In this document: piece by piece, positions 4,201-53,175 of the stretch
How the letters are laid out: each line of letters begins with the position of its first letter
Position numbering within the stretch: the first letter of the stretch is position 1
Origin: Spirulina sp. CS-785/01
Lineage (GTDB): Bacteria; Cyanobacteriota; Cyanobacteriia; Cyanobacteriales; Spirulinaceae
Direction: 5' to 3'
Assembly: GCF_028330525.1 (NCBI RefSeq)
Contig: NZ_JAQMSD010000207.1
Coordinates: 1-53,175, forward strand
DNA length: 53,175 bases
Position numbers and translations under genes: made by a program
The notes under the pieces: generated by a model
What the model was told of the DNA's origin: nothing
What the model saw: only the letters and a program-made list of their open reading frames with translations
Databases searched by the model: none

Positions 4201-4690
4201 AGGGAGTTGTTTTACTATCACTTTGCCGTCTCCCCCTATTTCTCCGGCTAGTCGTTCTTTTGTCTTGTCTTCTGCGGTAGAAATGCCCGGAAGTTCTCCT
4301 CAAGAAGACAAGCCTCCTTTAATTTTAATTGCTGATGATAATGAAGCGAATTGTAGTACCTTTGTTAGTTATTTAGAGGCTAAAGGCTATCGTCTAATTG
4401 TAGCAAGTAATGGAAAAGAGGCGATTACTCAAGCGGAGTCATCTCTCCCAGATGCTATCCTCATGGATATTCAAATGCCGGAGATGGATGGGTTAGAAGC
4501 GATAAGGATTATTCGTCAGAATCCCCAATTGGCGCAAATTCCCATTATGGCATTAACGGGGTTAGCGATGCCAGAAGATCAAGAGCGTTGTTTGGTGGCT
4601 GGGGCGAATGACTATCTCACTAAACCCGTTAAACTGAATGAATTGGCCCGTCGAGTGCAAGGGTTGTTGTTGATATCACGGGAAGATTAA
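1271..4690 (+). CDS. Hybrid sensor histidine kinase: CBS pair, four PAS, HisKA, HATPase, receiver
   Basis: A 1,139-residue soluble sensor kinase. A CBS-domain pair (about residues 10-160, containing VVGIFTEGDIIRLSL and LVGLITYESLRQVAL) suggests adenine-nucleotide sensing. Four PAS/PAC units follow at about 190-310, 320-445, 490-610 and 615-735. A Q/L/N-rich coiled coil separates the second and third. The HisKA H-box is NMSHELRTPLN with phospho-acceptor His756. The HATPase domain shows its N-box (NLLNNAVKFTPEGG), G1 (DTGIGI) and G2 (GTGLGLSL). The C-terminal receiver domain begins LILIADDNEANCS and has phospho-acceptor Asp1066 (LMDIQMPEMDG). No membrane helices were seen, so sensing should be cytosolic. 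No adjacent response regulator exists, so the phosphorelay output is unknown. The 1271 ATG fits the start of the CBS domain. Confidence 0.93.
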   Translation: MFPRATPLTPLEIQSLITRNPLIVSPDTLVSDAIARMNQVQSCRIITDSEGSQLDDFHQQARSSCVLVLKQEQVVGIFTEGDIIRLSLQQHPLQELTMASVMSHPVITLNELALTDIFAVLQRFQDHQIRHLPILNEQDHLVGLITYESLRQVALTCHLTRTYPQQTDEKENEIAQLSVKEAIALQQTKIRLRQSEQRYASLAAAAPVGIFHANAHGDCIYANERYCAILGYPLKDCMGKKWQQGLHPEDQPHVIAQWQEALRENHLFQIECRFIRPDGTVVWVYGQATTERDLEGKIIGYIGTIIDISKRKQIEADLQTLNQRYSFILDTIREGVWEWNIVTNETIVSDRYWEILGYPSHNPNRLSLQEALTFVHPEDAAHLQKVMEQHLQGNQPYNAEIRVQHQDGHYIWIHTQGQAIWDEQGNPVRMVGGIRDISDRKKAELERQQAIIQLEEINQKLQQLNQKLETQVTQRTAKLRKRETELQDFFDNAHDLIQSVSLETGRFEYVNRAWREVLGYTPEEVETLNLFDILHPDCQPYCQNIITQMQAGTLSTVEKVEITLISKTGQAIIVEGGVNCRFANNKPVATWSILRDITERQRSEAFRRAIMDLAPMGIFVYDINLGKIIFGNQAYEESLSYSLEELEALGEDLLATIYHPDYFEYLQAHDQQIKADREGKIFELDYTMIRKDGSLLLAYSREVVLNRNPDGSPAQILGVGLDITKRKQAELQLQKTNEELLRATRLKDEFLANMSHELRTPLNAILGMTETLQEQIFGSLNERQLNALNTIERSGTHLLELINEILDLAKIESGEMTIDCHPTSVVSLCQTSLTFVKRQAHKKRLKLEVNVPPYLPELLVDAKRIRQVLINLLNNAVKFTPEGGTINLDARYVPALEKPLGTKITVETPLQDYVEIVVRDTGIGIASEHLPKLFQPFVQIDSALNRKYEGTGLGLSLVKRIIDLHGGEVNVSSEVGVGSCFTITLPSPPISPASRSFVLSSAVEMPGSSPQEDKPPLILIADDNEANCSTFVSYLEAKGYRLIVASNGKEAITQAESSLPDAILMDIQMPEMDGLEAIRIIRQNPQLAQIPIMALTGLAMPEDQERCLVAGANDYLTKPVKLNELARRVQGLLLISRED

Positions 4691-38225: not shown

Positions 38226-39920
38226 ATGAGTTTAGACCACCCCCTCGGTTCAGTTATTCAAGGTTCACTCAGTCAAGGAATTGAAGTCCGTCTTCATGCC
38301 GATGTATCTGTTGAAGATATGCGCGTCGGGAAATTTCTGGTTATCCAAGGGATGCGATCGCGCTTTTTCTGTCTCCTCACCGATGTCACCCTCGGCACAT
38401 CCAGTCCCCGCATCCTCACCAACCCCCCCCACCCCAACGACGACTTTCTCCGGGAAGTCTTGGCCGGAGGCGGCACTTACGGGACAATCGAACTAGCCCC
38501 CATGCTCATGTTCACCCCCGACCAACAACCCACCCCCCAAAGCAACTCCTCCCTAGCGTCCTTTGAACCCAACAGCAACAGCGAAGACCAACTCCTCCCC
38601 GTCAAAACCATCCCCAGTCACTTCAGCCAAGTCTATGATGCCAACGAACGGGACTTTCGCATCGTTTTTGGGTCGGAAGACGACCCCCAACGGAAAAACT
38701 TCAACGTCGGCCAACCCCTCGACATGGATGTTCCCGTTTGCCTCAACCTTGACCGCTTCGTCGAACGCAGTAACGGCATTTTCGGCAAATCCGGCACAGG
38801 AAAATCCTTCCTAACCCGTCTCCTCCTCTCCGGCATTATCCGCAAAAAAGCCGCCGTTAACCTCATGTTCGATATGCACTCGGAATATGGCTGGGAAGCC
38901 ATCCAAGAAGGCCAAGGAGTCAACACCGTCAAAGGACTGCGACAACTCTTTCCGGGTCAAGTGGAAATCTACACCCTAGACCCCGAAGCCACCAAACGAC
39001 GCGGCATCAAAGACGCACAGGAACTCTTTCTCAGTTACGACCAAATCGAAATCGAAGACCTCCGCTTAGTCCGGTATAACCTAGGACTCTCCGACGCAAG
39101 CATTGATAACGCCAACATACTCGCCGCAGAATTTGGTCGGTCATGGATCACCCAACTCCTCAACATGACCAATGAAGAAATCAAAGAATTCTGTGAAACC
39201 AAACAAGGTCACATGGGGTCAATCATGGCCTTACAGCGTAAACTCATGCGCCTAGATGACCTAAAATATATCCGCTCGGCCTGTCCCCACAACTACATTG
39301 ATCAAGTCCTCCAATCCCTCGATGCGGGAAAGCACGTGGTCATTGAATTTGGCTCACATTCCAGCTTACTCTCCTATATGCTGGCCACCAACATGATCAC
39401 CCGACGCATTCACAGCAGTTATGTCCAGAAAGCCGATAAATTCCTCCGGTCGAAAAACCCGGCGGACCGACCCACCCAACTGGTGATTACCATTGAAGAA
39501 GCACACCGTTTTCTAGATTCTGCCATTGTCAATCAAACAATTTTTGGCACCATTGCGCGAGAAATGCGCAAATATTTTGTCACCCTCTTAATTGTCGATC
39601 AACGGCCTTCTGGCATTGATAATGAAGTGATGTCTCAGGTGGGGACCCGCATCACCTGTTTACTCAATGATGAAAAAGACATTGATGCCATTTTTACGGG
39701 AGTGTCTGGGGGACAGGGGTTACGGTCGGTTTTAGCGAAATTAGACTCCAAGCAACAAGCCTTAATCCTCGGTCATGCGGTCCCCATGCCTGTTGTGGTA
39801 CAGACTCGCGCCTATGATTCCCAATTTTACAGCGAAGTGGGGGCCGTGGACTGGCGAGAACAGTCTGATGAGCAGTTATTACTGGCCGCCGAAGCAGCGA
39901 AGGCGGATTTAGGGTTTTAG
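38226..39920 (+). CDS. HerA-type hexameric ATPase (DUF87 family)
   Basis: A 564-residue protein with an N-terminal beta-rich HAS-barrel-like domain (residues 1-110), a linker, and a FtsK/HerA-type ATPase core. Walker A is FGKSGTGKSFLTRLLLSG (about 186-203). Walker B is QLVITIEEAHRFL (about 418-430). A sensor region (LLIVDQRPSGIDNEVMSQVG) and a C-terminal RSVLAKLDSKQQALILGHA with likely arginine finger are also present. HerA proteins translocate DNA in end resection with NurA, or act with nucleases in defence systems. No NurA or Sir2 partner is adjacent here. It precedes ureC by 93 bp. Confidence 0.88.
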   Translation: MSLDHPLGSVIQGSLSQGIEVRLHADVSVEDMRVGKFLVIQGMRSRFFCLLTDVTLGTSSPRILTNPPHPNDDFLREVLAGGGTYGTIELAPMLMFTPDQQPTPQSNSSLASFEPNSNSEDQLLPVKTIPSHFSQVYDANERDFRIVFGSEDDPQRKNFNVGQPLDMDVPVCLNLDRFVERSNGIFGKSGTGKSFLTRLLLSGIIRKKAAVNLMFDMHSEYGWEAIQEGQGVNTVKGLRQLFPGQVEIYTLDPEATKRRGIKDAQELFLSYDQIEIEDLRLVRYNLGLSDASIDNANILAAEFGRSWITQLLNMTNEEIKEFCETKQGHMGSIMALQRKLMRLDDLKYIRSACPHNYIDQVLQSLDAGKHVVIEFGSHSSLLSYMLATNMITRRIHSSYVQKADKFLRSKNPADRPTQLVITIEEAHRFLDSAIVNQTIFGTIAREMRKYFVTLLIVDQRPSGIDNEVMSQVGTRITCLLNDEKDIDAIFTGVSGGQGLRSVLAKLDSKQQALILGHAVPMPVVVQTRAYDSQFYSEVGAVDWREQSDEQLLLAAEAAKADLGF

Positions 39921-40013: not shown

Positions 40014-41723
40014 ATGAGTTATCGAATGGACCGACGGGCCTATGCTGAGACCTATGGGCCGACAACGGGCGATCGCATCCGATTAGCCGATACTGATCTC
40101 ATTATAGAAGTCGAGCAGGACTTCACCAACTACGGAGATGAAGTGAAATTTGGCGGCGGTAAAGTGATTCGGGATGGGATGGGACAATCCCCCATTATCC
40201 GGGCAAAAGGGGCCGTGGATGTGGTGATCACCAACGCCCTTATACTCGACTGGTGGGGCATCGTCAAAGCCGATATTGGCATCAAAGACGGCAAAATTCA
40301 GCAAATTGGCAAAGCGGGCAATCCCTACATACAAAACAACGTAGATATCATTATCGGCCCCGCCACCGAAGCCATTGCCGGGGAAGGCATGATCCTCACT
40401 GCCGGGGGAATAGATGCCCATATTCACTTCATCTGCCCCCAACAAATAGAAACCGCCATTGCTTCGGGAGTCACCACCATGTTAGGGGGAGGGACCGGCC
40501 CCACCACCGGGACCAATGCCACCACCTGCACCCCTGGGGCCTGGAATATTGCCCGGATGCTGCAAGCAGTGGAGGCATTTCCCCTCAATTTCGGCTTTTT
40601 AGGCAAGGGAAACAGCAGTCAACCGGAAGGACTCGCCGAACAAGTGGTGGCCGGGGCCATAGGGTTAAAACTCCATGAAGACTGGGGGACCACTCCAGCG
40701 GCCATTGATACCTGTCTCAGTGTGGCAGAAGAAGCGGATATTCAGGTGGCTATCCATACAGATACCCTCAACGAGGCCGGCTTTGTTGAGGATACCATTG
40801 CCGCCTTTAAAGACCGCACCATTCACACCTACCACACCGAAGGGGCCGGCGGAGGTCACGCGCCGGATATTATTAAGGTTTGTGGCCAGGCCAATGTTTT
40901 GCCCTCCTCCACCAACCCCACCCGGCCCTATACCACCAACACCCTCGAAGAACATCTGGATATGCTGATGGTGTGCCACCATTTAGATAAGAATATCCCC
41001 GAAGATGTGGCCTTTGCCGAGTCGCGCATTCGGCGGGAAACCATTGCAGCCGAAGATATCTTACATGACCGGGGGGCGTTTAGTATGATTGCCTCAGACT
41101 CCCAGGCCATGGGCCGGGTAGGGGAAGTGATCTTGCGGACTTGGCAGACGGCCCACAAGATGAAAACCCAGTTTGGCCCCTTGCCGGAGGACTCCGATCG
41201 CAATGATAATTTACGGGCGAAACGGTATATTGCTAAATATACTATTAATCCTGCGATCGCCCACGGTATGGCCGATCATGTGGGGTCCGTAGAAGAAGGG
41301 AAGTTGGCGGACTTGTGCCTCTGGAAACCTGCCTTTTTTGGCGTGAAACCGGAAATCGTCATCAAAGGTGGGGCCATTGCCTGGGCCCAGATGGGGGACG
41401 CTAACGCCAGCATTCCCACCCCCCAACCCATCCAGATGCGGCCCATGTTTGGGGCCTTTGGCGGGGCCGTTGCCCCCCTCTCCATCACCTTTCTCTCCAA
41501 AGCAGCTATGAATACCGGAGTCCCCATGAAACTCGGCCTCCAGAAAATGAGCGTCGCGGTTTCCAATACTCGCAATCTTCGGAAACAGGACATGATGTTA
41601 AATGACTTGCTGCCGGAAATTGAAGTTGATCCCGAAACCTACGAAGTTCGCGCCAATGGGGAACTTTTAACCTGTGAACCCGCCACAGTTTTACCCATGG
41701 CCCAACGTTATTTCTTGTTTTAA
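40014..41723 (+). CDS. ureC: Urease subunit alpha
   Basis: A 569-residue catalytic subunit that hydrolyses urea at a dinickel centre. Visible landmarks are [16 protein letters not shown], the metal-binding His pair in [14 protein letters not shown], and carbamylated Lys219 in GLKLHEDWG. The metal His of [27 protein letters not shown], the flap [22 protein letters not shown], and the Asp ligand in [14 protein letters not shown] follow. The C-terminal [13 protein letters not shown] completes the protein. The expected ureA/ureB subunit genes are not upstream; the neighbour is the HerA-like gene. Dispersed urease genes are known in cyanobacteria. A ribosome-binding site (AAGGAG) lies 7 bp before the ATG. 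Confidence 0.98.
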
Positions 41724-41732
41724 TCTCTCCAA

Positions 41733-41756
41733 GGGGGCAAGATCGTCATTGTCCCC
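41733..41756 (+). terminator. Hairpin after ureC
   Basis: GGGGGCAA pairs with TTGTCCCC across an 8-nt loop, starting 9 bp after the ureC stop. It separates ureC from the following defence-like operon. Confidence 0.5.
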
Positions 41757-41843
41757 TAGATCACGCCATCCTTGTGATTTATGTCCTTGTGTTGATGTAA
41801 CTTCTTCCGATTGAATAGAAAAGGACTCACACAAGTGATAGTC

Positions 41844-42488
41844 ATGGCTTGTCAGACAAACGTGCGGCATATTTTAGGCATTTCCGGGGGAAAGGACTCC
41901 GCCGCCTTGGCGGTACTTCTCCATCAAGAAATTCCTCAGATGGAGTATTTTTTTTGTGATACACACAAAGAACTCCCAGAAACCTACGAGTTTTTGGAAC
42001 GCATCCAAGCGCGGTTAGGGATTAAAATTCACTATTTAAGCGCGAATCAAGGTTTTGATCACTGGCTGGCTTTATATGGCGGTTATCTCCCCTCCCCTCA
42101 AAGTCGCTGGTGTACTCGACAAATGAAAATTAAACCCCTTGAGGCGTTTGTTGGAGACGATGAAGCCATTAGTTACGTCGCCATCCGGGCCGATGAAAAC
42201 CGCGATGGCTATATTTCGACAAAACCCAATATCAAACCCGTCTATCCCTTCCGAGACCGGGGTTTAGTGAAAGCCGATATTGTCCGACTCCTCGAAGATA
42301 GCGGCATTGGTTATCCCGACTATTATCGCTGGCGGAGTCGTTCCGGTTGTTATTTTTGCTTTTTTCAACGCAAGTATGAATGGGTGAAACTGGCCGAAGA
42401 ACACCCAGACTTGTTCGCCAAAGCGGTGGCCTACGAACAAGAACACGCAGACGGACGGACTTACACCTGGACTCAGGGAGAAACCTAA
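41844..42488 (+). CDS. PAPS-reductase/DndC-like ATP-pyrophosphatase, frameshifted at its C-terminus
   Basis: A 214-residue protein of the PAPS-reductase/N-type ATP-pyrophosphatase superfamily. The PP-loop is ILGISGGKDSAALAVLL. Next come YFFCDTHKELPETYEFLERI and SRWCTRQMKIKPLEAF with its cysteine, then VAIRADENRDGY and a cysteine pair in RSGCYFCFFQRKYEWVKLAE. Such domains activate sulfur or nucleobases; relatives include DndC in phosphorothioation and BrxP in type 4 BREX. The normal reading appears to continue after the TAA at 42488 in the next frame to 42648 (CLICHL), so a 1-base frameshift truncates it. The ATG at 41844 is preferred over a TTG at 41811. It is first in the candidate operon. 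Confidence 0.85.
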   Translation: MACQTNVRHILGISGGKDSAALAVLLHQEIPQMEYFFCDTHKELPETYEFLERIQARLGIKIHYLSANQGFDHWLALYGGYLPSPQSRWCTRQMKIKPLEAFVGDDEAISYVAIRADENRDGYISTKPNIKPVYPFRDRGLVKADIVRLLEDSGIGYPDYYRWRSRSGCYFCFFQRKYEWVKLAEEHPDLFAKAVAYEQEHADGRTYTWTQGET

Positions 42489-42648
42489 ACCGAATTATTT
42501 AGCCCGAAAAGAGGAAATTATCGCCAACCATGAGAAAGCCATGGCCAGAGAACAAAGCAAGCAACCCAACAAACCCCTATCGGAAGCCCTAGCGGATGTT
42601 TTAGACGAAGAAGACGAAGACCTCCCTTGTTTAATTTGTCACCTTTGA
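42485..42648 (+). pseudogene. Out-of-frame C-terminal tail of the PAPS-reductase-like gene
   Basis: In the frame shifted by one base from the gene before it, the sequence reads NYLARKEEIIANHEKAMA, then KPLSEALADVLDEEDEDL and PCLICHL before a TGA. This is protein-like, helical and acidic, and ends in a CxxC that would complement the GCYFC cysteines upstream. The simplest reading is that both parts are one gene broken by a single-base indel near 42482-42487. An ATG at 42541 could start a short independent peptide. Sequencing error is possible. Confidence 0.7.
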
Positions 42649-42691
42649 ATAATTAATCATTAATAATTACCCATTACCTGCCAAAAAAACC

Positions 42692-45013
42692 ATGTCATTT
42701 AGTTTTGGTGTACAAAAAGACCCGATTTATGGAACGTATGGAGAATTTTCCATTGGCAGTAAAGAGAATAAAATTCGCGCCCAATTTCTCTTAACAAAAA
42801 TGAAACCGGGGTCAGCCGGAAATTGGGAGAATACTTTTGCTTCGCAAATGATTCCGTGGCGAGAAGTTTTTAACGTAGAAGAACTCACCTTTGATGAACT
42901 CCTCCAACGGGACTTAGACGACTCACGGGTTGCCCATGACTTAATCCCCTATTTGTTAGGAGAATCGGGAGACTCAGCCCGCTTTTTTCCGCCTATTTTA
43001 GCGGTTCTAGTTCCCAAAAAACACGAAAAAACTGGCATTCAGCCCTATTATCCCACCCCCACACAAGAAGGAAAAACTAAACTTAATTTTGGCAATTTAT
43101 TCGAGTTTGAAAAAGCTATTGTTGAGGGTGAAGTTAGCCCCTTGGGTGTGATTAAATATAACCGTCACCAAGCCGCCTTTATGATTGTTGATGGTCAACA
43201 CCGAGCAATGGCAATTTTAGCCCTACATAGACAAATCAATCAAACGTGGAAAGGCAATCGTTACGCCACCTTTTATCAACATTTAAAACTCCAAGAAGAC
43301 CAAATTAAACATATCGAACTGCCCATTTGTGTAGTATTTTTCCCCGATTTACACGAAACCAATCAAACCGTCCAAGACCAAGGCATTGATTTAAAAAGTG
43401 TCTGTCGGGAAATTTTCCTAGTGGTGAATAAGAGTGCAAAATCGGTCAGCCAGTCCAGAGAACTCTTACTCGATGATGAAGACTTGGCCGCCCGCATGAT
43501 GCGGGAAACCCTCTCCAAACTGAAAGACCGGGGGGAAGATAAAGCCTCCCTAGCTCGCATTTATTCCTTTGCTTTTGGGGATAATGATGCCAGTAAACAA
43601 GAAGTCGTTGTCGGCCAACTGGAATATACCTCCGCCGTCGCCCTCCACAAAATGCACTGTGCTGCCGTTTTTGGGGTGCGAGATGCCTTTGAATTTAATC
43701 GAGAAAAAGGGGGAGATATCACCGATGGCCGCCGCATTCAAAACTCCAAACGTCCGGTGACACTGCTGCGGGGAACTGCCTTAGAGGACTGGCCCAGTTT
43801 AGCCCGTCGCTCAGGAAAAACCCACTCTCCCCAAGACATCCAAGACGCGGTGCATCTCTTGGCACAGATGACCGATGCAGTTCTTTTTCCCCTCTTTGAC
43901 CGTTTCCGCCCCTTTGCCGTCCACAACGCGGAAATGCGGGCATTACGCACCCGTTTACAAGACCCGGACATGATGGCCAACCCCACCCAACAAAAATGTT
44001 TTAGCCTCTTATTTGAGGGGAGTGGGGTGCGGACGGTGTTTGAGTCTCATTTAGAACGGTTGAAAAAACGGAAAAAAGCCGCCCAAGAGGAAGGAACAGC
44101 GATTAGTGATTATACCAATAATCAACTCAAGGATGCGAAAGGCATTGAGTCCGCATGGCACAGACACCGAGAAGACCTGAAAAAAAGTCGGGCGGCCCGT
44201 TTATTTTATATTGACCCAGAGCGATTTTTTGAGAATCCCGACAATCACGAAGACTGGTCTAAACTCCTCCACCAAGCCAACAGCGTCTATGATACGGTTT
44301 CGACCCAAGCCTTCCAACTGGGTTATCTTATGGCGGTGCATTCGGTGGTGGAACTGATGGTTTATGATGAAACGCCCTATGAACAACGGTTAGGGATGGT
44401 GCAGTTTGTGGCCAATTTGTTTATTGATGCGCTCAATGCTTATTTTTCGTCTAGTTCTGCTAAAGAACATCGCAGTTATACGGGACTGGTGAAAGAGTCG
44501 CGGGCTAATGTTTTTAACCGGAAGGCGTTGGGGTTGCGGGGACTGTTGATGCAGAGTGTTGCAGAGTTGAATGAGAAGCAATGGGTCTTTTTCCGCTATG
44601 CGGTGTTGGAGATGGTGCATTGTAAGCATACTTATCGCACTGTACAAGAGCAGTTAGAGCAAGCCTCTGATCTTGCTATTGCCCAACGATATCGGGAGGT
44701 TCTGCCTAATTTAATTGGCCATCTGCTCACTCTGCGTAAAAATTACATTGAAGCGGCCCAACAGAAGGCGTTAGAGTCTGCTGATTTTAAACAGGAGGTG
44801 CAGGTGTTACAGGCGAAGTTACAAGGGGCCGGAAAACTGGATACCGAAATTACAGAAGCGGTTAACGCCAAACAAGAGGAAAAAAGAGCAACGGTCCAAC
44901 AGCAATGTCGGGAGAATATTCAAGCGAGTTTAGGGGAGTTTCTCAGCCAACCAGATAAGCTCATTAATCGCCTCTTCGGGGATAGTACGGGAGAGAGTTG
45001 GGACGATGCCTAA
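42692..45013 (+). CDS. Large DGQHR-domain (DndB-like) protein
   Basis: A 773-residue protein. The N-terminal third carries the hallmark AAFMIVDGQHRAMAILAL (DGQHR near residues 168-172) with flanking FPPILAVLVPKKHEK and HIELPICVVFFPDLHETNQ. These are typical of the DndB/DpdB (DGQHR, ParB-like) family, linked to DNA phosphorothioation and 7-deazaguanine modification. Known DndB proteins are about half this size. The remaining ~450 residues are mainly helical, with a coiled-coil end (EVQVLQAKLQGAGKLDTEIT), and match nothing I can name. It lies 44 bp after the PAPS-reductase tail. Its stop overlaps the ATG at 45006, which appears to begin the interrupted ATPase gene. Confidence 0.85.
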   Translation: MSFSFGVQKDPIYGTYGEFSIGSKENKIRAQFLLTKMKPGSAGNWENTFASQMIPWREVFNVEELTFDELLQRDLDDSRVAHDLIPYLLGESGDSARFFPPILAVLVPKKHEKTGIQPYYPTPTQEGKTKLNFGNLFEFEKAIVEGEVSPLGVIKYNRHQAAFMIVDGQHRAMAILALHRQINQTWKGNRYATFYQHLKLQEDQIKHIELPICVVFFPDLHETNQTVQDQGIDLKSVCREIFLVVNKSAKSVSQSRELLLDDEDLAARMMRETLSKLKDRGEDKASLARIYSFAFGDNDASKQEVVVGQLEYTSAVALHKMHCAAVFGVRDAFEFNREKGGDITDGRRIQNSKRPVTLLRGTALEDWPSLARRSGKTHSPQDIQDAVHLLAQMTDAVLFPLFDRFRPFAVHNAEMRALRTRLQDPDMMANPTQQKCFSLLFEGSGVRTVFESHLERLKKRKKAAQEEGTAISDYTNNQLKDAKGIESAWHRHREDLKKSRAARLFYIDPERFFENPDNHEDWSKLLHQANSVYDTVSTQAFQLGYLMAVHSVVELMVYDETPYEQRLGMVQFVANLFIDALNAYFSSSSAKEHRSYTGLVKESRANVFNRKALGLRGLLMQSVAELNEKQWVFFRYAVLEMVHCKHTYRTVQEQLEQASDLAIAQRYREVLPNLIGHLLTLRKNYIEAAQQKALESADFKQEVQVLQAKLQGAGKLDTEITEAVNAKQEEKRATVQQQCRENIQASLGEFLSQPDKLINRLFGDSTGESWDDA

Positions 45014-45077
45014 ATTACAATTGGGGTTTCATGAGACTTTTGTAAAAACTATCGATCTAAGAAAAATTTATGAATAA
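45006..45077 (+). pseudogene. Detached N-terminal segment of the large ATPase gene
   Basis: An ATG overlapping the DGQHR stop by 8 bp opens a 23-codon reading: MPKLQLGFHETFVKTID, ending LRKIYE, then TAA. It looks like the N-terminus missing from the downstream ATPase. The ATPase frame resumes without its own start just after the HNH gene (from about 46232: KGFIFNYDEQKPEHSTVGIL). I infer that an HNH-encoding insertion separated the two parts. The match is judged by eye from sequence character and operon geometry. Confidence 0.6.
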
Positions 45078-46236
45078 TAGTTCAAGCTCATTTAATTTTT
45101 CAGCGTTACCTAGTTCAGAAATTGTCGATGTTTCGGCACTTTCTAGATTGTTTGCAGATACCACAAATTCTTACAAATATCTTTTCTTTTTTTTCCTTAT
45201 TGATATTCTCAAAAGAAATGATTTTGATATCAATTTGTCAATTAGCTTTCAACAGATTGTTGTAGAAATGATTGCTAATGCTTGGTATCCTCACAATTAT
45301 TTTAAACTTTCTTTTGGGACACAGGATAAATTGACTGAGAAGTTAGACTCATTAAACTTAGAATTGAGTGAGCCAGTTTTAAAATTTACCGATACAGATA
45401 AAAAGCTTTTAAGGAATACAATTGAGAAACAATCTTTAGATGATATTGTAAAGTTTTTAACTAGATACGTTCCTTATAGATTACTTTGTCCATTCCTAGA
45501 GCAAGAATTAAAGATCGAAAATGTAGATAGAGGAAAAGGTAATAAACTTGATATTGCTATGCCTCTAATTGCACGAAAATATTTTAAAGACAGGAGGCCA
45601 TTATATTGTTTTAATTCAGTTCAGTATAATCAGTGTAATGTCCTTCAAATTAATTCTGATTGGGCTAAATACTTAAAAGATAATTATGCAATTGTTAGAG
45701 GTTGGGCTTCATGGGAATGGCTCAATTATATGCAAAATAAAAATCCTAATATTCCTAATTTAGTTAATAAAATTTTTATACCTCAAAGACGAGGTGCATT
45801 ACAGCAACAAACGCAATACTGGAAAACAGTATTACAGAAACAATCAAAAACTTTATGTATTTATTCTGGAGAAGAATTAGATATAAAAAATATTTCTCTT
45901 GATCATTATATCCCGTGGTCATTTGTAGCCCACGATCAATTATGGAATTTAATCCCAGTGCGTAAAGAGATAAATTCCTCTAAATCTAATAATTTACCTT
46001 CTGATCAATATTTTGAGAAATTTGTACATCTCCAATATATTGGCTTAACAACGTATTATCAAGAATTTAGTCGGCGCAAATTTTTAAATCAAGTTGATTC
46101 TTATTTAAATGACTTAAACATTGATCTTGATGGCTTACTTGATTATCAAAAACTTAGAAATGCTTATCAAATTACAATGCAACCTTTAATAAATTTAGCA
46201 GAAAAACAAGGTTTTTCTACTAATTGGACATATTAA
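45070..46236 (+). CDS. HNH endonuclease, AT-rich insertion
   Basis: A 388-residue protein with a C-terminal HNH-type nuclease motif: LCIYSGEELDIKNISLDHY, then IPWSFVAHDQLWNLIPV and NSSKSNNLPSDQYF. The Asp-His pair (LDHYIPW), the Asn (LWNL) and a late Asn/Lys segment form the betabeta-alpha-metal site. Residues 1-260 are of unknown fold. The gene is far richer in A+T than its operon neighbours. It overlaps the 23-codon ATPase fragment at its 5' end and stops exactly where the ATPase frame resumes. This suggests a recently acquired selfish or homing-type endonuclease gene rather than an original operon member. Confidence 0.82.
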   Translation: MNNSSSSFNFSALPSSEIVDVSALSRLFADTTNSYKYLFFFFLIDILKRNDFDINLSISFQQIVVEMIANAWYPHNYFKLSFGTQDKLTEKLDSLNLELSEPVLKFTDTDKKLLRNTIEKQSLDDIVKFLTRYVPYRLLCPFLEQELKIENVDRGKGNKLDIAMPLIARKYFKDRRPLYCFNSVQYNQCNVLQINSDWAKYLKDNYAIVRGWASWEWLNYMQNKNPNIPNLVNKIFIPQRRGALQQQTQYWKTVLQKQSKTLCIYSGEELDIKNISLDHYIPWSFVAHDQLWNLIPVRKEINSSKSNNLPSDQYFEKFVHLQYIGLTTYYQEFSRRKFLNQVDSYLNDLNIDLDGLLDYQKLRNAYQITMQPLINLAEKQGFSTNWTY

Positions 46237-46300
46237 AGGGTTTATTTTTAACTACGACGAACAAAAGCCGGAACATTCTACGGTTGGCATTCTCGACGCT

Positions 46301-49300
46301 GTGCGATGCAGTTACGAAAGCCGGAATAATGCCAATATTCACCTAATTATCCAAGATTACGGTAAGGGCAAATCTCACTTTGCTGTCGTGGTGGCCAATT
46401 TCTTTCAAAACGCCTTAGAGAGTCAAGAAGTACAGGGAATTCTCCAGCAAATTGAGGTAGCTGCGGGGACATCTAAGGCAGTGGCGGAACGCTTTAAGGC
46501 GTATAAACGCAATCAACAGCGGCCTCATTTGGTGTTATGTCTAAGTGGGGATAAGGCGGGTGATCTCCGTAAACAGTTCCTAGAAGTCCTCTTGAATGCC
46601 CTAGAAGCGGAGGGAGTGGAGGACACCTTGGCCCAACATCTGTGTTATGAACCCCTGCGGTATTTGGAAAATTTAGGGGAACAGCAGCGAGTGGCCGCAG
46701 ACTCCTATTTAGAGAGTATTGGCAACCCGGATGGGGACTTGCGGTCTTTGATTCAATTATTGCGCGATCGTAACCTACAAGTCATTCCGCGAGTGAAAGA
46801 ACTCGTCCGCCACCTCACGGAAGTCACCCCCGATTTTACCAGCGAAATTGAGATTGATGTCATTCTCAAAGACCTAATCGAAAATCTCTGTCAAGGGGAA
46901 AACCAACGATTTCAGGGCATTCTTATCCTTTTTGACGAGTTAAACTACTATCTTACCTCTTGGGCAACGGATCAAATGGCCGCCGGACACAAGGCCCCTC
47001 AACACATTACCAACATTTGCGAACGCTACAAGGGCAAAATCACCCTCCTGAGTTTAACTCAAATCCCTCCTTTAAAAGCCGTCGGCATTTCAGCCCATGT
47101 CACGGAAAATTACAAAAAAGTGGCCAGTCGTTTCGCCCCCCAAGATAGCACCTACAACCCCATTTCTAGCCTAGAGTTAGTCGTCGATAACCTCCTAGTC
47201 CAAGAGGAAGACGAAACAACGCAGATTTGGCAGAACTTTTATAAAAAATGGCAAAACACCCTCCGCGAAGAAGCCCGCACCGCTTACGAGAAGCGGGTTA
47301 AACTTTATAAAGAGCAAAAAGGGTGGAAATTCGAGAAGTTTTATCGCCACCTAGGAAAAGGCGTTTTTCCTCTCCATCCCTTAACGGCTTATTTACTCTG
47401 TAATCTCGAATTTACCCAAGACCGAACCGCCATTCAATTCATCAAGGGTTACACCAAAAAATTCATCGAACAACATCCCATTGAAGAAGCGGGAAAACTC
47501 AACTATATTTATCCCATTGATCTCGTTGATAGCTTCGTGGATAACTTCTCTAATGCCTCCGTCTATGAAGCCTATCGCAAAGCCTACAACCTAGCAGTTA
47601 ATTCTGAAAACCCGGATGAAGTGCCGGTTTTAAAAGCCCTCTTTCTCTACTACGCTACCGGAGATAAAATTGCTAAGACCGACCGAGAACCCCATGAAGA
47701 TATTATCAAAACTTTAACGGGTTTAAAATCTTCAAAAATCAAAGCAGCCCTAAGAATTTTAGAACAAAAAAGAGAGGTTATTTATTACCGACCTGAAACC
47801 CGAATCTATCAATTTTTTGAAGGTATTAATCCCGGTCGTATCCAAGAAGAAATTGAAGAAGAAGTTAAAGAACGCTATCGCAAAAATCCGAATTATGATC
47901 CCTTCCCAAACTTTATTGTCCATTGTAACCAAAACATTCATAAATACTTACAAAATAAAGTCATTGCCGCCAAAGACTTTGTAAGAACCTATCAACAAAT
48001 TGAAGCCGATTGGCAATTTGAAAACAAAGTTTATACCATTAGCAACCTCTTACAAACCTTAAAGAAAAAAGACCTAGCGGGGTCAACTCCAGAACGGGGA
48101 ATTGTTGCCTATGCCTTAGCCGAAAACCAAGAAGACCTACAGGAATTACGGCGCACCCTTGACCAGCACCTCAACTCATCAAGCATTCAAGACCAGATCG
48201 CCATTGCCATTCCCGCCGATGCAACCGGAGACTTAGCCAGTTTACTGTTAAAACTAGACATCCTCAACCAACGGGACTCCGCCGAAAAACGCCTCTATGG
48301 TGCTGCCTATACCCAACTCAAACAACGTTGGGAAGAACAACTCGATAAACAATTGGGGGATTTGTTCGCCAATTGCACCTATCACAGCATGGTCAACGCT
48401 TCTAACCCTAACGACCCCCAATCTGTTGTCAGTGCCTTACTAGAGAAACGGTATCCGGGGGTTTTATCCATCGAGTCTCAGGACAAAATGCGCTCCAATC
48501 ACCCAACGGGGACGAAAATTGTCCGTTATCTGGCGATCGAGTTTCTCAAGCAAGGCTATCTTTCAACCCCTTTTTCTGAAAAGTCCTATAAAACTGTTAT
48601 TGACCAAATTTTCACCCGTCGTTGGGATTTACTCAAGCCCACCTCTCAAAAATATCTGTTACAAGTCCCTACGGATGAGAATGTGCGGGTTGCTTGGGAG
48701 AAAATCTCGGAGTTAACCGACTTACAGGGAGAGTCTAAAAAGACTATCCGTTTGCAGGCACTCTGGGAGACTCTCTCAGCCCCTCCCTTTGGGTGTAGCG
48801 AATATCTGTTTGTCGTACTGTTAACTGCTTGGATGGCCTATCATCGCAAAGAAATTATGCTATATGGGCCGGTTGGCATTCCCAAAAAAAACAAGTCAGT
48901 GCCACTGTACACTCAATCTCTTAGAGAATGGGCGAGTGTAGAAAGCATTTGGCAAAAACCCAGAGATTTTGTTCATCAGTGGGTGAAACATCCTCAAGCC
49001 AAACTGATTCGCCAACAACGCCTCGCTCCCCCAGAATTGCCTTCCTCTCCCATAAATTATGATCAAGCCCAAGAGTATTTAGGGAAAGCGCAGACCTTTT
49101 TAAATTCCAATGAACCCGATCCCACGGATGTCAAGGAGGTGAAGGAGACGGAAAAACAGGTGAAAGAGAAGATGAAACCGGTGCAGTCTTGGTTTAAGCC
49201 TGTGGACGAGACAGAAAAATTACCTCCGGTGGTGGCCTTAGACAGCTTGTTACCTCTTTATACCAAACTGTTACAACCCCCGCCGACACTGAATTTACGG

Positions 49301-51187
49301 TCGGATGTCCTGACGGTGACTCCTACTCACCAACAGCGCGATCGCCACGATAAAGCCTTAGAAACCCTGCGAACCCGTCTTGCTGACTGTATCAGCACCC
49401 ACGCACAAAAAGCCGAAACCCTCGCCACTCCCAACGACTGCACCACCTATAAACAAGAAACGGAGGCGAAAATTAAGCAACTGGGGCAACTTTCTCCCTG
49501 TCCTCCCCATCTCATCGAACAGCTTAACAACGCGCTGCAAGTGGCTGATCGCAGCCAAGTCAAAGGCCAGATTCAGTCACTCTACCGCAATCTAGACGAA
49601 CACGCCACGCAAGGGGATTACACGCAAACCCGGACAGACATAGAAGCTAGGGCGCGATCGCTGCCTGACTCGGCCAAAAGCGACATTGAGAACATCCTAC
49701 AAGACCTAACCCGCCGTTATGAAGAACTCTGTCAAATGTTGGCCACTTGGGAAGAACAGGCGGCCTCTGTCACCTCCAAAAATCAAATCCTCGATTTAAT
49801 TAAAGAAATTACCCATAAAGAGCGTTATTTCACTGAAGCAGACAGTCAGCAACGGATCAAAACCCTCCAACACCACCTTGAGCAAGAATTGCTCAAAGTT
49901 GAACAACAAGATAATACCGAAAAATCAATTCGAGGGGAACTGGCCAGCATCCAACAAAAACTGCAACGCATCCGAGATTTACCCTTTGCCAGACTGAAAG
50001 AATCTTTCCAAGTCTATCAAGAATTAGTGCAAAGTCAGTTATCCATTACCGAAACCCCAACACTTGCCCAACAATATGCCCCTAAATTAGACGAACTGGA
50101 CAAACTCAAAACCCAAGGCCGCACCGTGATGGCGGAGAAATTTGCCCAGTTAGGACAACGTTCTTTAACTCGTTTAGACGATTATGAAGTGTTTAAGCAA
50201 AAACTGACCAATAGTATTGAACTGCTCCAAAATTATGAAGAATTTGCCGAGAGTCGAGATATTTTGCACAAGGCTCTGCAAAATTTGGACATCCAATACC
50301 AGCAATTAGAACAACAACAAGTTACGAGGCAAAAGGAAAAAAAAGATGCTCAAATAATGCAGCAAATTCGCTCAATTCAGTCATCTCATTATCATACTAT
50401 TGCAGCCTGTAAAGTAGGGATAGAGGAGATTAATACTTTAAAAACTCAACTTCATTTCCTCCAACCTGTTGAAGCAGAAATTCAGCAAGTTTTGACACAA
50501 CTCCAAAAGAAAATCCAAAAATATTATGATGAATTAGCCCGATTTGAGGAATTTGTCACCTCAACTAATCACCTCACAGAAGCCCGAAAAAATTATGAAT
50601 TTTTCTTGCAGAAATTTCATTTTTATGCTAATAGCACAACCGCAGAAAATCGCTATAATACGATTAAATCTGACTTAGGTTTATTGGTGGAATTATTCCA
50701 ATTTACTGCCCTTCCCCAACAGACCATTTCAGACTATCAAAACCTCTTAAATCAATTAAACCATTGGCAGGAAAAACAGGAGTTAAGCCCCGCTTTACAA
50801 TACCAATATGAGACTCTGGTGACAACAGTAGAAAATCAACGTAATGCCTTATATCTCAAAAAACAAGAAGCGGCGAAACAGTGGGTAAAAGACTTAGGAA
50901 AACGAGTCGCTTGCGAAGTCACCCCCCCGGCCATTTCTGAGCGTAATAAATTAGAGTCAGCCCATGATATTTTAGAGCAGTTGGAGCGAGAAAAACCGCA
51001 ATATTTAGAGTTTCTGTCTGAGACGCACCGAAACTCTTTAACCCATATCAAAAAATACTGTAAAGATGAACAAGAAAAACACCTAGAAAACCAAATTATT
51101 ACCTCCTTTAAAAAACTTCCGCGCTTACAGCGTCAAAAAGTTTACAAAAAATTAGGAAACTATTTAGACCATAATCCGGAGGCGTAA
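46301..51187 (+). CDS. Giant P-loop ATPase with coiled-coil tail (PglY/BrxC-like), 5' end interrupted
   Basis: A 1,628-residue protein from the first available start (GTG 46301). The true N-terminus is probably upstream, since the frame is open from 46199 and reads KGFIFNYDEQKPEHSTVGIL. The P-loop is LIIQDYGKGKSHFAVVVANF (about 16-36). Walker B is GILILFDELNYYL (about 205-217), followed by a sensor-like ITLLSLTQIPP. These fit the large AAA+-type ATPases of BREX/Pgl systems (PglY/BrxC, DUF6079-like). Residues about 930-1628 are almost entirely Q/E/L/K-rich coiled coil (EEFAESRDILHKALQNLDIQ and similar). It is followed without a gap by the kinase gene. It would energise the complex; the exact family needs a profile search. 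Confidence 0.82.
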   Translation: MRCSYESRNNANIHLIIQDYGKGKSHFAVVVANFFQNALESQEVQGILQQIEVAAGTSKAVAERFKAYKRNQQRPHLVLCLSGDKAGDLRKQFLEVLLNALEAEGVEDTLAQHLCYEPLRYLENLGEQQRVAADSYLESIGNPDGDLRSLIQLLRDRNLQVIPRVKELVRHLTEVTPDFTSEIEIDVILKDLIENLCQGENQRFQGILILFDELNYYLTSWATDQMAAGHKAPQHITNICERYKGKITLLSLTQIPPLKAVGISAHVTENYKKVASRFAPQDSTYNPISSLELVVDNLLVQEEDETTQIWQNFYKKWQNTLREEARTAYEKRVKLYKEQKGWKFEKFYRHLGKGVFPLHPLTAYLLCNLEFTQDRTAIQFIKGYTKKFIEQHPIEEAGKLNYIYPIDLVDSFVDNFSNASVYEAYRKAYNLAVNSENPDEVPVLKALFLYYATGDKIAKTDREPHEDIIKTLTGLKSSKIKAALRILEQKREVIYYRPETRIYQFFEGINPGRIQEEIEEEVKERYRKNPNYDPFPNFIVHCNQNIHKYLQNKVIAAKDFVRTYQQIEADWQFENKVYTISNLLQTLKKKDLAGSTPERGIVAYALAENQEDLQELRRTLDQHLNSSSIQDQIAIAIPADATGDLASLLLKLDILNQRDSAEKRLYGAAYTQLKQRWEEQLDKQLGDLFANCTYHSMVNASNPNDPQSVVSALLEKRYPGVLSIESQDKMRSNHPTGTKIVRYLAIEFLKQGYLSTPFSEKSYKTVIDQIFTRRWDLLKPTSQKYLLQVPTDENVRVAWEKISELTDLQGESKKTIRLQALWETLSAPPFGCSEYLFVVLLTAWMAYHRKEIMLYGPVGIPKKNKSVPLYTQSLREWASVESIWQKPRDFVHQWVKHPQAKLIRQQRLAPPELPSSPINYDQAQEYLGKAQTFLNSNEPDPTDVKEVKETEKQVKEKMKPVQSWFKPVDETEKLPPVVALDSLLPLYTKLLQPPPTLNLRSDVLTVTPTHQQRDRHDKALETLRTRLADCISTHAQKAETLATPNDCTTYKQETEAKIKQLGQLSPCPPHLIEQLNNALQVADRSQVKGQIQSLYRNLDEHATQGDYTQTRTDIEARARSLPDSAKSDIENILQDLTRRYEELCQMLATWEEQAASVTSKNQILDLIKEITHKERYFTEADSQQRIKTLQHHLEQELLKVEQQDNTEKSIRGELASIQQKLQRIRDLPFARLKESFQVYQELVQSQLSITETPTLAQQYAPKLDELDKLKTQGRTVMAEKFAQLGQRSLTRLDDYEVFKQKLTNSIELLQNYEEFAESRDILHKALQNLDIQYQQLEQQQVTRQKEKKDAQIMQQIRSIQSSHYHTIAACKVGIEEINTLKTQLHFLQPVEAEIQQVLTQLQKKIQKYYDELARFEEFVTSTNHLTEARKNYEFFLQKFHFYANSTTAENRYNTIKSDLGLLVELFQFTALPQQTISDYQNLLNQLNHWQEKQELSPALQYQYETLVTTVENQRNALYLKKQEAAKQWVKDLGKRVACEVTPPAISERNKLESAHDILEQLEREKPQYLEFLSETHRNSLTHIKKYCKDEQEKHLENQIITSFKKLPRLQRQKVYKKLGNYLDHNPEA

Positions 51188-53175
51188 ATGGCAAGAATTA
51201 TTAGAATGGGTCCGCCTGTGAATGAGGTAGAACGAGATGCGATCGCCTATTTACGCGGTCATCTTCCCAATACTTACACCATTTTTCACAATCTCGAATT
51301 ACGAGGGAATCAGATTATCTCAGAAATCGATCTCGTTATCATTGCCCCCCAATGCGTCTTTGTGGTAGATATTAAAGGCATACATGGGACAATCGAGGTA
51401 TTTGGCTCGAAGTGGTATCCTGAAAATCGCCAACCCTATTATTCCCCCGTAGCCAAACTCAGACAACATTGTAGAGTGTTAAATAGCCTCATTCGTAATA
51501 GTAATTACACGAACTCTCAGTTAGGCAAAGTCCACATTCAACCGGCGGTTTTGTTAATGTCCGATGATGTAGAATTAATTGACCCTAGTGGCAAAGATGA
51601 CGAGGTGGTTATTCCTTGCGATCGCCAAGGACTCCAGTATTTTCAAAGTACAGACTTCATCCCCGATTATCGTTTACAAGATATTAGCCCTTATCTCTCG
51701 ACAGTAGAACAAGTCATCCGGGGAACAGCAAGGCCGAAAAACCCCCTCCCCCGTTACGGGAAATGGCAAGTCAGCGAGAAACTAGGGGAAAGCGATCGCT
51801 ATATTGATTATCGGGCTAACCACCTCTCCTTAAAAAACCTCACCACCCGTTTACGGGTCTATCCCATTGATATCTACCAAGATGCCACAGCCCGGGCAGA
51901 AGAAAAGAAACTCATTCATAATGCGTTTGAGACAGTGTACAAACTGCCCCTCCATCAGCATATTTTACCCCTTCGTGATCTCTTAGAAGGCGAAGATGGA
52001 GACTGTGTAGTGATTGCCACCGATGATATTGCCAGTCATACCCTCCGGCAGTCCATTCAACAAGATCACCTCACCCTCACGCAAAAATTAGACTGGATCG
52101 AGCAAATTTTAACAGGCCTAGACCACATCCACCAAAATCAGGTCATCCATCGCCATCTCACCCCAGACACCCTTCTCATCGACGCAGACCAGCAAATCCG
52201 AATTACTGGGTTTGATTATGCGCGAGTCCGCGATCGCACCACCACCATCGCCAATGACATTATAGAAGACCTCAACGAAGATGCCGCCTATCAAGCCATC
52301 GAATGTTATCGTGATCCCCAAAAAGCCAGTATTGCCTCCGATCTCTTTGCGGCCGGGTTAATTTTCTATGAACTTCTTACCGGAAAACAGGCTTTTGCCA
52401 ATGCTGAGGAAATTTGCGATCGCGCCGCCCAATTTCCCCAACCTCCCTCCCACCTCAACCCAGACCTCCCTCCCGGCCTCGATGAATGGTTGCAAACCCT
52501 TTGTGCGTTTGAACCCCAACACCGTTTCACCCATGCTGAGACGGCCTTACAACAACTGTCCGCCCTCCGTACTCCCCAACCCCCCCCAGAGGTAAATCCC
52601 CACCTCCCTCTCGATGATTTAACCGACCTTCCCCCCAAAACCTGCCTTGATGGTCGCTACACCATCCAACATCGACTAGGGAAACCCGGTAATTTCGCCG
52701 TTGCCTATAAAGTGGATGATGAGTGGGGGAAAGAAACCGTAGTCTTGAAACTGGTCACGCGCGATCGGTATTCCGTCTATGACCGCTTACGACAAGAATA
52801 TCAGACACTCAAACAAATTGCCCACCATCCCTACATCGTCCCAGTTTCTTGGGCTGGAGAATTAAAAGACGGCACACCCTTTATCACCTTTAAATACATC
52901 GAAGGAGAAGACCTCGCAACCCTGCTGGCCAAGCAAAAATTTACCATCGAACAAAGCCTCAAAATTGCCCAACAAACGGTAAGCGCGATCGATCACCTCC
53001 ACCAAAACAGCATCTATCACCAAGATATCAAACCCTCCAATCTCCTCTGGACAAAAGACGGCATCCGTCTCATTGACTTTAACATTGCCATCTCTGAAGA
53101 AAGTCAAGAAGGAGTCTCTGCGGGAACAAGACGTTATCTCCCCCCTGACTATCAATTAACCCCCACCCCCACCCG
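51188..53175 (+). CDS. PglW-like NERD-pseudokinase-kinase protein (3' end outside window)
   Basis: The ATG follows the ATPase stop immediately (TAAATG), and the frame stays open for 662 codons to the window edge. Residues about 10-130 are a NERD nuclease-related domain (NEVERDAIAYLRGHLPN, then ISEIDLVIIAPQCVFVVDIK, with the D and V-D-x-K residues). A first protein-kinase-like domain follows (about 200-455). Its catalytic loop reads IHRHLTPDTLL (His323 instead of Asp), with GFDYARV instead of DFG, so it is a probable pseudokinase. A second kinase domain (from about 488) has the Lys of VVLKLV, YHQDIKPSNLL (Asp613) and LIDFNIA (Asp630), then AGTRRYLPPDY, so it is probably active. NERD plus tandem kinase recalls PglW of the phage growth limitation system. 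Confidence 0.88.
   Translation, partial: MARIIRMGPPVNEVERDAIAYLRGHLPNTYTIFHNLELRGNQIISEIDLVIIAPQCVFVVDIKGIHGTIEVFGSKWYPENRQPYYSPVAKLRQHCRVLNSLIRNSNYTNSQLGKVHIQPAVLLMSDDVELIDPSGKDDEVVIPCDRQGLQYFQSTDFIPDYRLQDISPYLSTVEQVIRGTARPKNPLPRYGKWQVSEKLGESDRYIDYRANHLSLKNLTTRLRVYPIDIYQDATARAEEKKLIHNAFETVYKLPLHQHILPLRDLLEGEDGDCVVIATDDIASHTLRQSIQQDHLTLTQKLDWIEQILTGLDHIHQNQVIHRHLTPDTLLIDADQQIRITGFDYARVRDRTTTIANDIIEDLNEDAAYQAIECYRDPQKASIASDLFAAGLIFYELLTGKQAFANAEEICDRAAQFPQPPSHLNPDLPPGLDEWLQTLCAFEPQHRFTHAETALQQLSALRTPQPPPEVNPHLPLDDLTDLPPKTCLDGRYTIQHRLGKPGNFAVAYKVDDEWGKETVVLKLVTRDRYSVYDRLRQEYQTLKQIAHHPYIVPVSWAGELKDGTPFITFKYIEGEDLATLLAKQKFTIEQSLKIAQQTVSAIDHLHQNSIYHQDIKPSNLLWTKDGIRLIDFNIAISEESQEGVSAGTRRYLPPDYQLTPTPT

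Follow-up and report, generated by a model that had tools for sequence, protein, structure and literature searches.

A probably eroded, phosphorothioation-linked, type-4-like BREX/Ssp locus with a kinase–PglZ fusion in Spirulina sp. CS-785/01

INTRODUCTION

Which system is encoded by five plus-strand open reading frames (ORFs) that run to the very end of a contig of the cyanobacterium Spirulina sp. CS-785/01, and is it still whole? The window analysed here (NZ_JAQMSD010000207.1, 53,175 nucleotides (nt)) is the entire contig C192 of a draft genome of 351 contigs and 5.4 Mb, and the five ORFs lie at 41811–42488, 42692–45013, 45070–46236, 46301–51187 and from 51188 to the window end. A first-pass annotation, made from the sequence, read them as an intact, unnamed operon of cooperating genes. 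The analysis leads to a different answer, namely that the window probably contains the first half of a phosphorothioation-linked, type-4-like bacteriophage exclusion (BREX)/Ssp locus with a kinase–PglZ fusion, which is now eroded and which a gap in the draft assembly cuts in two within the kinase gene. This matters for type-4 BREX, which is little studied, and for the way in which PglZ and PglW-type kinases act.

A LOCUS DIVIDED BETWEEN CONTIGS

The contig end falls inside the kinase gene, of which the window retains NERD, a pseudokinase and the start of an active-looking kinase (51188..53175, plus strand; Pfam NERD and two kinase stretches). A query with the C-terminal part of MAD6 gave a single match genome-wide, at bases 27–272 of contig C235, where the kinase C-lobe is encoded. 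C-rich low-complexity sequence is found at both contig ends (C192 and C235) and, judged from fused homologues, the space at the join is ~0–10 residues; we infer that the two contigs are neighbours in the genome. The frame continues on C235 up to base 701 with the kinase C-lobe, a PglZ N-terminal domain, a repetitive linker and a PglZ-like tail. Then come BrxL (481 residues, C235:759–2204; PADLOC BrxL 4.1e-126, NCBIfam TIGR02688 422 bits with a cut-off of 329), the cysteine desulfurase SspA (398 residues, C235:2201–3397; SspA 3.3e-135, DndA 5.4e-135) and a convergent SspC of 1162 residues (PADLOC SspC, 1437 bits), while SspB (6.5e-118), the product of the sole DUF4007 gene of the genome, is encoded on contig C40. 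The order ATPase–(kinase–)PglZ–BrxL–SspA is the same as in relatives. The expectation of the first-pass annotation that the locus continues past the window was thus borne out, as was its view that sulfur-modification and BREX/Pgl-type parts stand genuinely side by side; PglZ and BrxL are missing from the window, as it stated, only since the contig ends.

THE LOCUS IN RELATED GENOMES

Among 84,980 species genomes scanned, 47 related loci were found; the stretches fetched for them often end at contig ends, and some of the loci duplicate genomes met elsewhere in the analysis (e.g. L068 = G205). They are mostly cyanobacterial, with four exceptions (L097, L099, L101 and L102). The order in relatives is SspB–SspC–SspD, DUF4007b–p144–ATPase–PglZ–BrxL, SspA, and a Thermomicrobium roseum plasmid is annotated with the same order, including two DUF4007 proteins, its two large unnamed proteins matching SspC and the long ATPase. 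Counted over the 47 loci, the neighbours are DUF4007b (43), p144 (41), PglZ-matching ORFs (36), BrxL (33), SspB (16), SspC (16), SspD (15), SspA (14), DndC or DndD (10), HNH (4), a DpdE-like helicase (3) and SspE (3); SspB, SspC, SspD, DUF4007b, p144, PglZ, BrxL and SspA all occur together in the fetched stretch of nine loci. The five-gene order of the window was seen in none of the 47, and the order in relatives is longer and different.

Beside this general picture, nine loci (L063–L067, L073, L084, L086 and L098) have the DUF4007b–p144–ATPase–PglZ–BrxL set next to DndD and/or DndC-like genes, with no Ssp genes there, and L101, the tenth DndC/DndD locus, lacks the set. As the set adjoins DndD/DndC-like genes in some loci and Ssp genes in others, either sulfur-marking machinery may be its partner. 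Two consecutive DUF4007b-type genes are present in L092 and L100, and in Cyanobacterium sp. HL-69 (L047:20333–25912) the DGQHR gene is followed by a BrxL-like one whose parts stand several kilobases apart.

LESIONS IN THE SPIRULINA LOCUS

The first gene (41811..42488, plus strand) is an interrupted sspD-like gene of the PAPS-reductase family. The first-pass start, an ATG at 41844, is internal to it. The protein was called a DndC-like PAPS reductase, of which the family name stands (Pfam PAPS_reduct) and the DndC likeness gives way to an SspD one (PADLOC SspD E = 2.9e-105, best DndC 1.7e-10). When 16 SspD proteins of relatives were aligned and the three frames read, the ORF was found to stop ~45 residues short of the relatives' ends, the C-terminal part with its conserved Cys-x-x-Cys end lying in another frame at 42496..42648 (plus strand). 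Relatives hold intact copies of sspD.

The second gene (42692..45013, plus strand) encodes a 773-residue protein, rightly described as DGQHR/DndB-like (Pfam DndB, 3.1e-8) and with an undamaged DGQHR motif at residue 167; its NCBIfam DGQHR domain match falls below the model cut-off. Relatives 56–64% identical to it were found in four other genomes (386 searched), and a sequence search of the PDB gave no match.

After this gene, the 23 codons at 45006..45077 (plus strand) are a remnant of the start of a second DUF4007 gene, DUF4007b, initially spotted at E = 0.029 and matched there by 15 of 42 DUF4007b queries (best E = 0.001, against a best of 0.031 elsewhere in the window). The HNH_4 nuclease gene (45070..46236, plus strand; 8.8e-13, confirming the nuclease assignment) sits exactly between this remnant and residue ~35 of the ATPase, and thus stands in place of most of DUF4007b, p144 and the ATPase start. 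It is probably a foreign insert, because its composition is AT-rich (GC 29%, third positions 20%, versus 44–48% in its four neighbours) and because its relatives keep no fixed position in loci of this kind: L045, L047 and L077 have one between SspC and SspD, L071 and L131 have one ahead of DUF4007b, and in L100 it follows an ATPase fragment. The direct adjacency of DGQHR, HNH and ATPase genes results from this replacement. An AlphaFold model of the HNH protein was not used, given its poor confidence (mean pLDDT 51.7).

The long SspC/BrxC-like ATPase (46235..51187, plus strand) accordingly has no N-terminus: homology restarts at about residue 35 of its relatives, right at the HNH stop codon, and the first usable start codon is the GTG at 46301. 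It carries GKGKS and LILFDE motifs and matches the SspC and BrxC-PglY profiles of PADLOC, both weakly (4.7e-15 versus 7.5e-4). The size given in the first-pass annotation (~1,630 residues) fits the open frame of 1628 residues, and its PglY/BrxC likeness yields to an SspC one. Neither Pfam, which returned no family, nor a PDB sequence search, which returned no match, refined this assignment. Of 386 genomes sampled across the phylum, 7 have an ATPase match, as do 8 of 99 nearer relatives, with this genome counted in. Both the truncated sspD and the headless ATPase ORF had gone unnoticed. The five genes are co-directional as claimed; their junctions are not tight or overlapping throughout (gaps of 203, 56, 64 and 0 nt), the ATPase–kinase one alone being truly tight.

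As to p144, a query against the genome gave no match, an empty answer that shows little in the absence of a positive genome. The protein has no match in Pfam, PADLOC or NCBIfam; its AlphaFold model is good (pLDDT 86), no Foldseek match reached E ≤ 0.001 (the best had 3.1e-3, and AAA ATPases predominated) and the best VIA Z was 8.0, a value that can reflect a common arrangement. The model suggests a small protein to be labelled no finer than AAA-like, which may be the counterpart of BrxB.

THE KINASE AND ITS FUSION TO PglZ

The last protein was presented as a PglW-like NERD/double-kinase. The domain composition is correct and the affiliation is not: the protein passes the MAD6 model NF047741 (645 bits, cut-off 460) and fails the PglW model (224 bits, cut-off 990). 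Active kinases carry HRD and DFG at their motif sites; the first kinase domain has HRH and GFD, and the second retains HQD, K and DFN.

NERD-kinase matches are found in 14 of the 47 loci. Eight of these encode everything from NERD through both kinases to the PglZ end in one ORF of 1487–1589 residues, three more have ORFs that join parts of NERD-kinase and PglZ (1231, 968 and 997 residues), and in the remaining three the gene is broken or cut. Within the fetched stretches, SspE is absent from all 14 kinase loci, and the kinase from all 10 Dnd-associated loci. The assignment of the second half of the fusions to PglZ is a sequence-based one, drawn from the PADLOC PglZ profile (1.8e-28 in L057 of Stenomitos frigidus, a relative with the full gene set, and 1.2e-27 in L089) and BLAST. 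In the trees, MAD6 of Piscinibacter clusters with the fused cassettes (96/98), whether inside or beside them not being resolved; the type-4 rows form one group in 28% of bootstrap trees, the MAD6/PglW rows are long branches, and a single origin of the kinase–PglZ cassette is not shown.

In the literature searched (open-licence papers), no description of the kinase–PglZ fusion or of PglZ core loss was found; the kinase–PglZ architecture in relatives and the recurrent core loss described below look new. A natural fusion implies that kinase and PglZ act at the same place in the complex. The NERD–pseudokinase–kinase cassette has at least three partners in the present data (PglW, MAD6 and PglZ), and a fourth, DndF, is reported in PMC10853773.

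In Calothrix (L089, L091 and L094), a DpdE-like SNF2 helicase gene precedes the kinase–PglZ set (in L089, PADLOC DpdE 1.3e-232), and the fetched stretch contains neither Ssp nor Dnd genes.

PglZ WITHOUT ITS CORE

On the kinase frame of C235, ~65 residues are 46% identical to residues 4–66 of the PglZ of a relative, and this is the sole match of that PglZ in the genome; an acidic repeat linker and a tail like the PglZ C-terminus follow. A genome search with Pfam PglZ gave no match, which is a weak control because the PglZ part of the fusions escapes Pfam too. Similar reductions exist elsewhere. In L070, L074, L096 and G326, PglZ has 215–219 residues, made of the N-terminal domain and the C-terminal beta-sandwich region, and in G394, a member of the family to which the window genome belongs, it has 130 residues comprising the N-terminal domain, a proline-rich linker and the tail. 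The Spirulina fragment has the shape of that of G394 and is located on the kinase. A tail pattern, composed after the alignments had been viewed, fits the window protein and 29 of 37 PglZ ORFs, but none of 570 other ORFs. The ratio of non-synonymous to synonymous substitution rates (dN/dS) of the reduced PglZ is 0.32–0.52 over six pairs (L070, L074, L096 and G326), compared with 0.16–0.23 for BrxL, 0.23–0.30 for p144 and 0.17–0.22 for DUF4007b.

According to PMC13326643, residues 1–98 of type-1 BREX PglZ bind BrxB, itself on BrxC, and the Ig-like domain at the C-terminus is a possible site of dimerisation; by analogy, the retained parts could be positional counterparts of these interaction regions. 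This suggests a tentative idea, to which rather little probability is given here, that PglZ is a removable catalytic core between an autonomous N-terminal docking domain and a C-terminal tail. In an equally tentative continuation, the NERD-kinase cassette would have joined the docking domain in cyanobacterial phosphorothioation-linked BREX systems and the core would later have been discarded in some lineages, kinase signalling replacing the PglZ nuclease as restriction effector. If so, PglZ becomes a pure adaptor presenting a kinase or nuclease to the ATPase machine. Natural core loss also indicates which regions of PglZ serve assembly and not catalysis. A result against this is that a close SspD occurs nowhere in the genomes L070, L074, L096 and G326; the search of seven genomes gave two weak matches (36–38% identity), and the full-PglZ controls L076 and G243 are likewise devoid of a close SspD. 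The four reduced-PglZ modules may therefore be orphans, and not working sulfur-linked systems. Separately, the dN/dS of DUF4007b, p144 and BrxL in these modules (~0.16–0.30), despite the missing close SspD, would fit an orphan module held by selection.

INTERPRETATION

Gene content, gene order, the breaks and the fusion in relatives are read directly from the DNA; the activities are predicted ones, extrapolated from characterised Ssp and BREX systems. In the better-preserved relatives, SspA–SspD would mark host DNA with sulfur, and DNA lacking the mark would be acted on by DUF4007b, p144, the long ATPase, PglZ and BrxL. In a subset of cyanobacteria, the front of PglZ is fused to the NERD–pseudokinase–kinase cassette that is known elsewhere from PglW and MAD6, and the N-terminal domain of PglZ may dock this cassette onto the ATPase complex by analogy with type-1 BREX. 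In Spirulina, the locus has probably decayed: sspD is interrupted, a probably foreign HNH gene has replaced DUF4007b, p144 and the ATPase start, SspB and SspC stand apart, and PglZ has lost its core, with its two ends kept on the kinase. The ATPase, kinase, DGQHR and BrxL frames that stay open may reflect a residual or reduced role. Since the locus is eroded, with sspD interrupted, sulfur marking is probably off in this genome. The kinase-controlled sulfur-modification module put forward in the first-pass annotation is hence real as to the kinase link (fused to PglZ in relatives) and doubtful here as a working module.

Several observations weigh against this interpretation. The frames of DGQHR (773 residues), ATPase (1628), kinase, BrxL (481), SspA (398) and SspC (1162) are all open, which argues against an old ruin because a long-decayed locus would not retain them. 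The PglZ part of the fusions has no Pfam PglZ match at E ≤ 0.01 and reaches 35 bits for a cut-off of 140 with NCBIfam BREX_PglZ_4, and relatives carry two DUF4007 proteins as well as two ATPases, a departure from the type-4 BREX of PMC12839542 with its five components. Moreover, with a single draft genome, the lesions could partly be sequence errors. An assembly origin of some of them, such as the stop and frame change of sspD or the missing PglZ core, agrees with the contig break itself at a C-run; it is nevertheless improbable, as the two sspD lesions are near neighbours, the missing part of PglZ has given way to a repetitive linker with the frame preserved, the same shape occurs in an independently sequenced family relative, and the HNH replacement is gene-sized.

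An alternative is a streamlined working variant in which the kinase cassette replaces the PglZ phosphatase as effector, PglZ is an adaptor, and HNH/DGQHR serve as nuclease or switch. Such a variant would account for the recurrence of PglZ cut to its ends (in this genome, G394, L070, L074, L096 and G326) at the dN/dS values given above, for the shared tail pattern and for the HQD, K and DFN of kinase 2. It is judged unlikely in view of the interrupted sspD, the loss of DUF4007b, p144 and the ATPase start, the splitting of the G394 ATPase by a transposase gene and the weaker constraint on reduced PglZ than on BrxL, p144 and DUF4007b. Far less credible still is the intact five-gene operon: five open co-directional frames speak for it, and against it stand the longer and different order in relatives, the incomplete state of sspD and of the ATPase and the foreign composition of the HNH gene. 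An eroded type-4-like BREX/Ssp locus is thus the probable explanation.

NEIGHBOURING FEATURES

Slightly upstream of the locus, the window contains a HerA-like helicase with a HAS barrel (38226–39920) and a match to Rfam 5_ureB_sRNA (40170–40455, minus strand, 110 bits), antisense inside an ORF that we take to be ureC-like. On C235 (L052), a small gene pair between SspA and SspC (3603–4252, minus strand) presumably resembles a HEPN/MNT toxin–antitoxin pair. At the contig end of C40 (L054, 1–190), a repeated AT-rich motif adjoins the solitary SspB gene.

COMPARISON WITH KNOWN SYSTEMS

The locus departs from Dnd in its first gene, which is SspD-like (2.9e-105) more than DndC-like (1.7e-10). It shares with PglW of type-2 BREX the order NERD, pseudokinase, kinase, and differs by a score below the PglW cut-off and by a C-terminal half that is here a PglZ fragment; PglW is described as type-2 specific in PMC12839542. 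The kinase passes the MAD6 model of the MADS system; however, it is joined to a PglZ domain and not to the C-terminal half of MAD6, and membership was rejected because MAD7 and MAD8 have no match in window 41,500–53,175 and C235 1–9000. PbeABCD, considered as a possible PglZ/BrxL module, also proved unrelated: PbeA is described as a nuclease-helicase of the HKD type, PbeC as an ABC ATPase and PbeD as a DndE.

Of SspABCD–SspE, this genome has SspA, SspB, SspC and SspD homologues; SspE has no match in the same two stretches, a genome-wide search not having been made, and DGQHR and HNH proteins are found at the locus instead. Clusters of the DGQHR type on the cyanobacterial plasmids NZ_AP014825, NC_007410 and CP024914 have SspB–SspC–SspD followed by a 56–63% identical DGQHR protein and SspA, with HNH between SspC and SspD in two of three. 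They differ in continuing with a DEAD-box helicase, an ATP-binding protein and a PLD-family protein (annotated in two of three), and no kinase or long ATPase was found there.

With type-4 BREX, the component families are shared (PAPS reductase, DUF4007, BrxC/SspC, PglZ, BrxL and often cysteine desulfurase), with PADLOC matches in this genome for SspD, SspB, SspC, BrxL and SspA. The PAPS reductase gene is represented by the interrupted sspD, DUF4007 by SspB on C40 and by the DUF4007b remnant at the locus, the BrxC/SspC ATPase by SspC on C235 and the long ATPase of the window, and BrxL and the cysteine desulfurase are both on C235. Of PglZ, there are the N-terminal ~65 residues and the tail; as the search for the PglZ phosphatase did not find it, the Spirulina locus does not qualify as an intact member. 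PMC12839542 reports this phosphatase in all of its 457 taxa and the cysteine desulfurase in 56%. The relatives differ from type-4 BREX by the second DUF4007, p144, the second, longer ATPase and, in some, the kinase cassette–PglZ fusion. Their gene content is nevertheless close to the kit of phosphorothioation-based type-4 BREX (PMC12839542), so that the combination, taken in the first-pass annotation for an unrecognised one, has a described counterpart.

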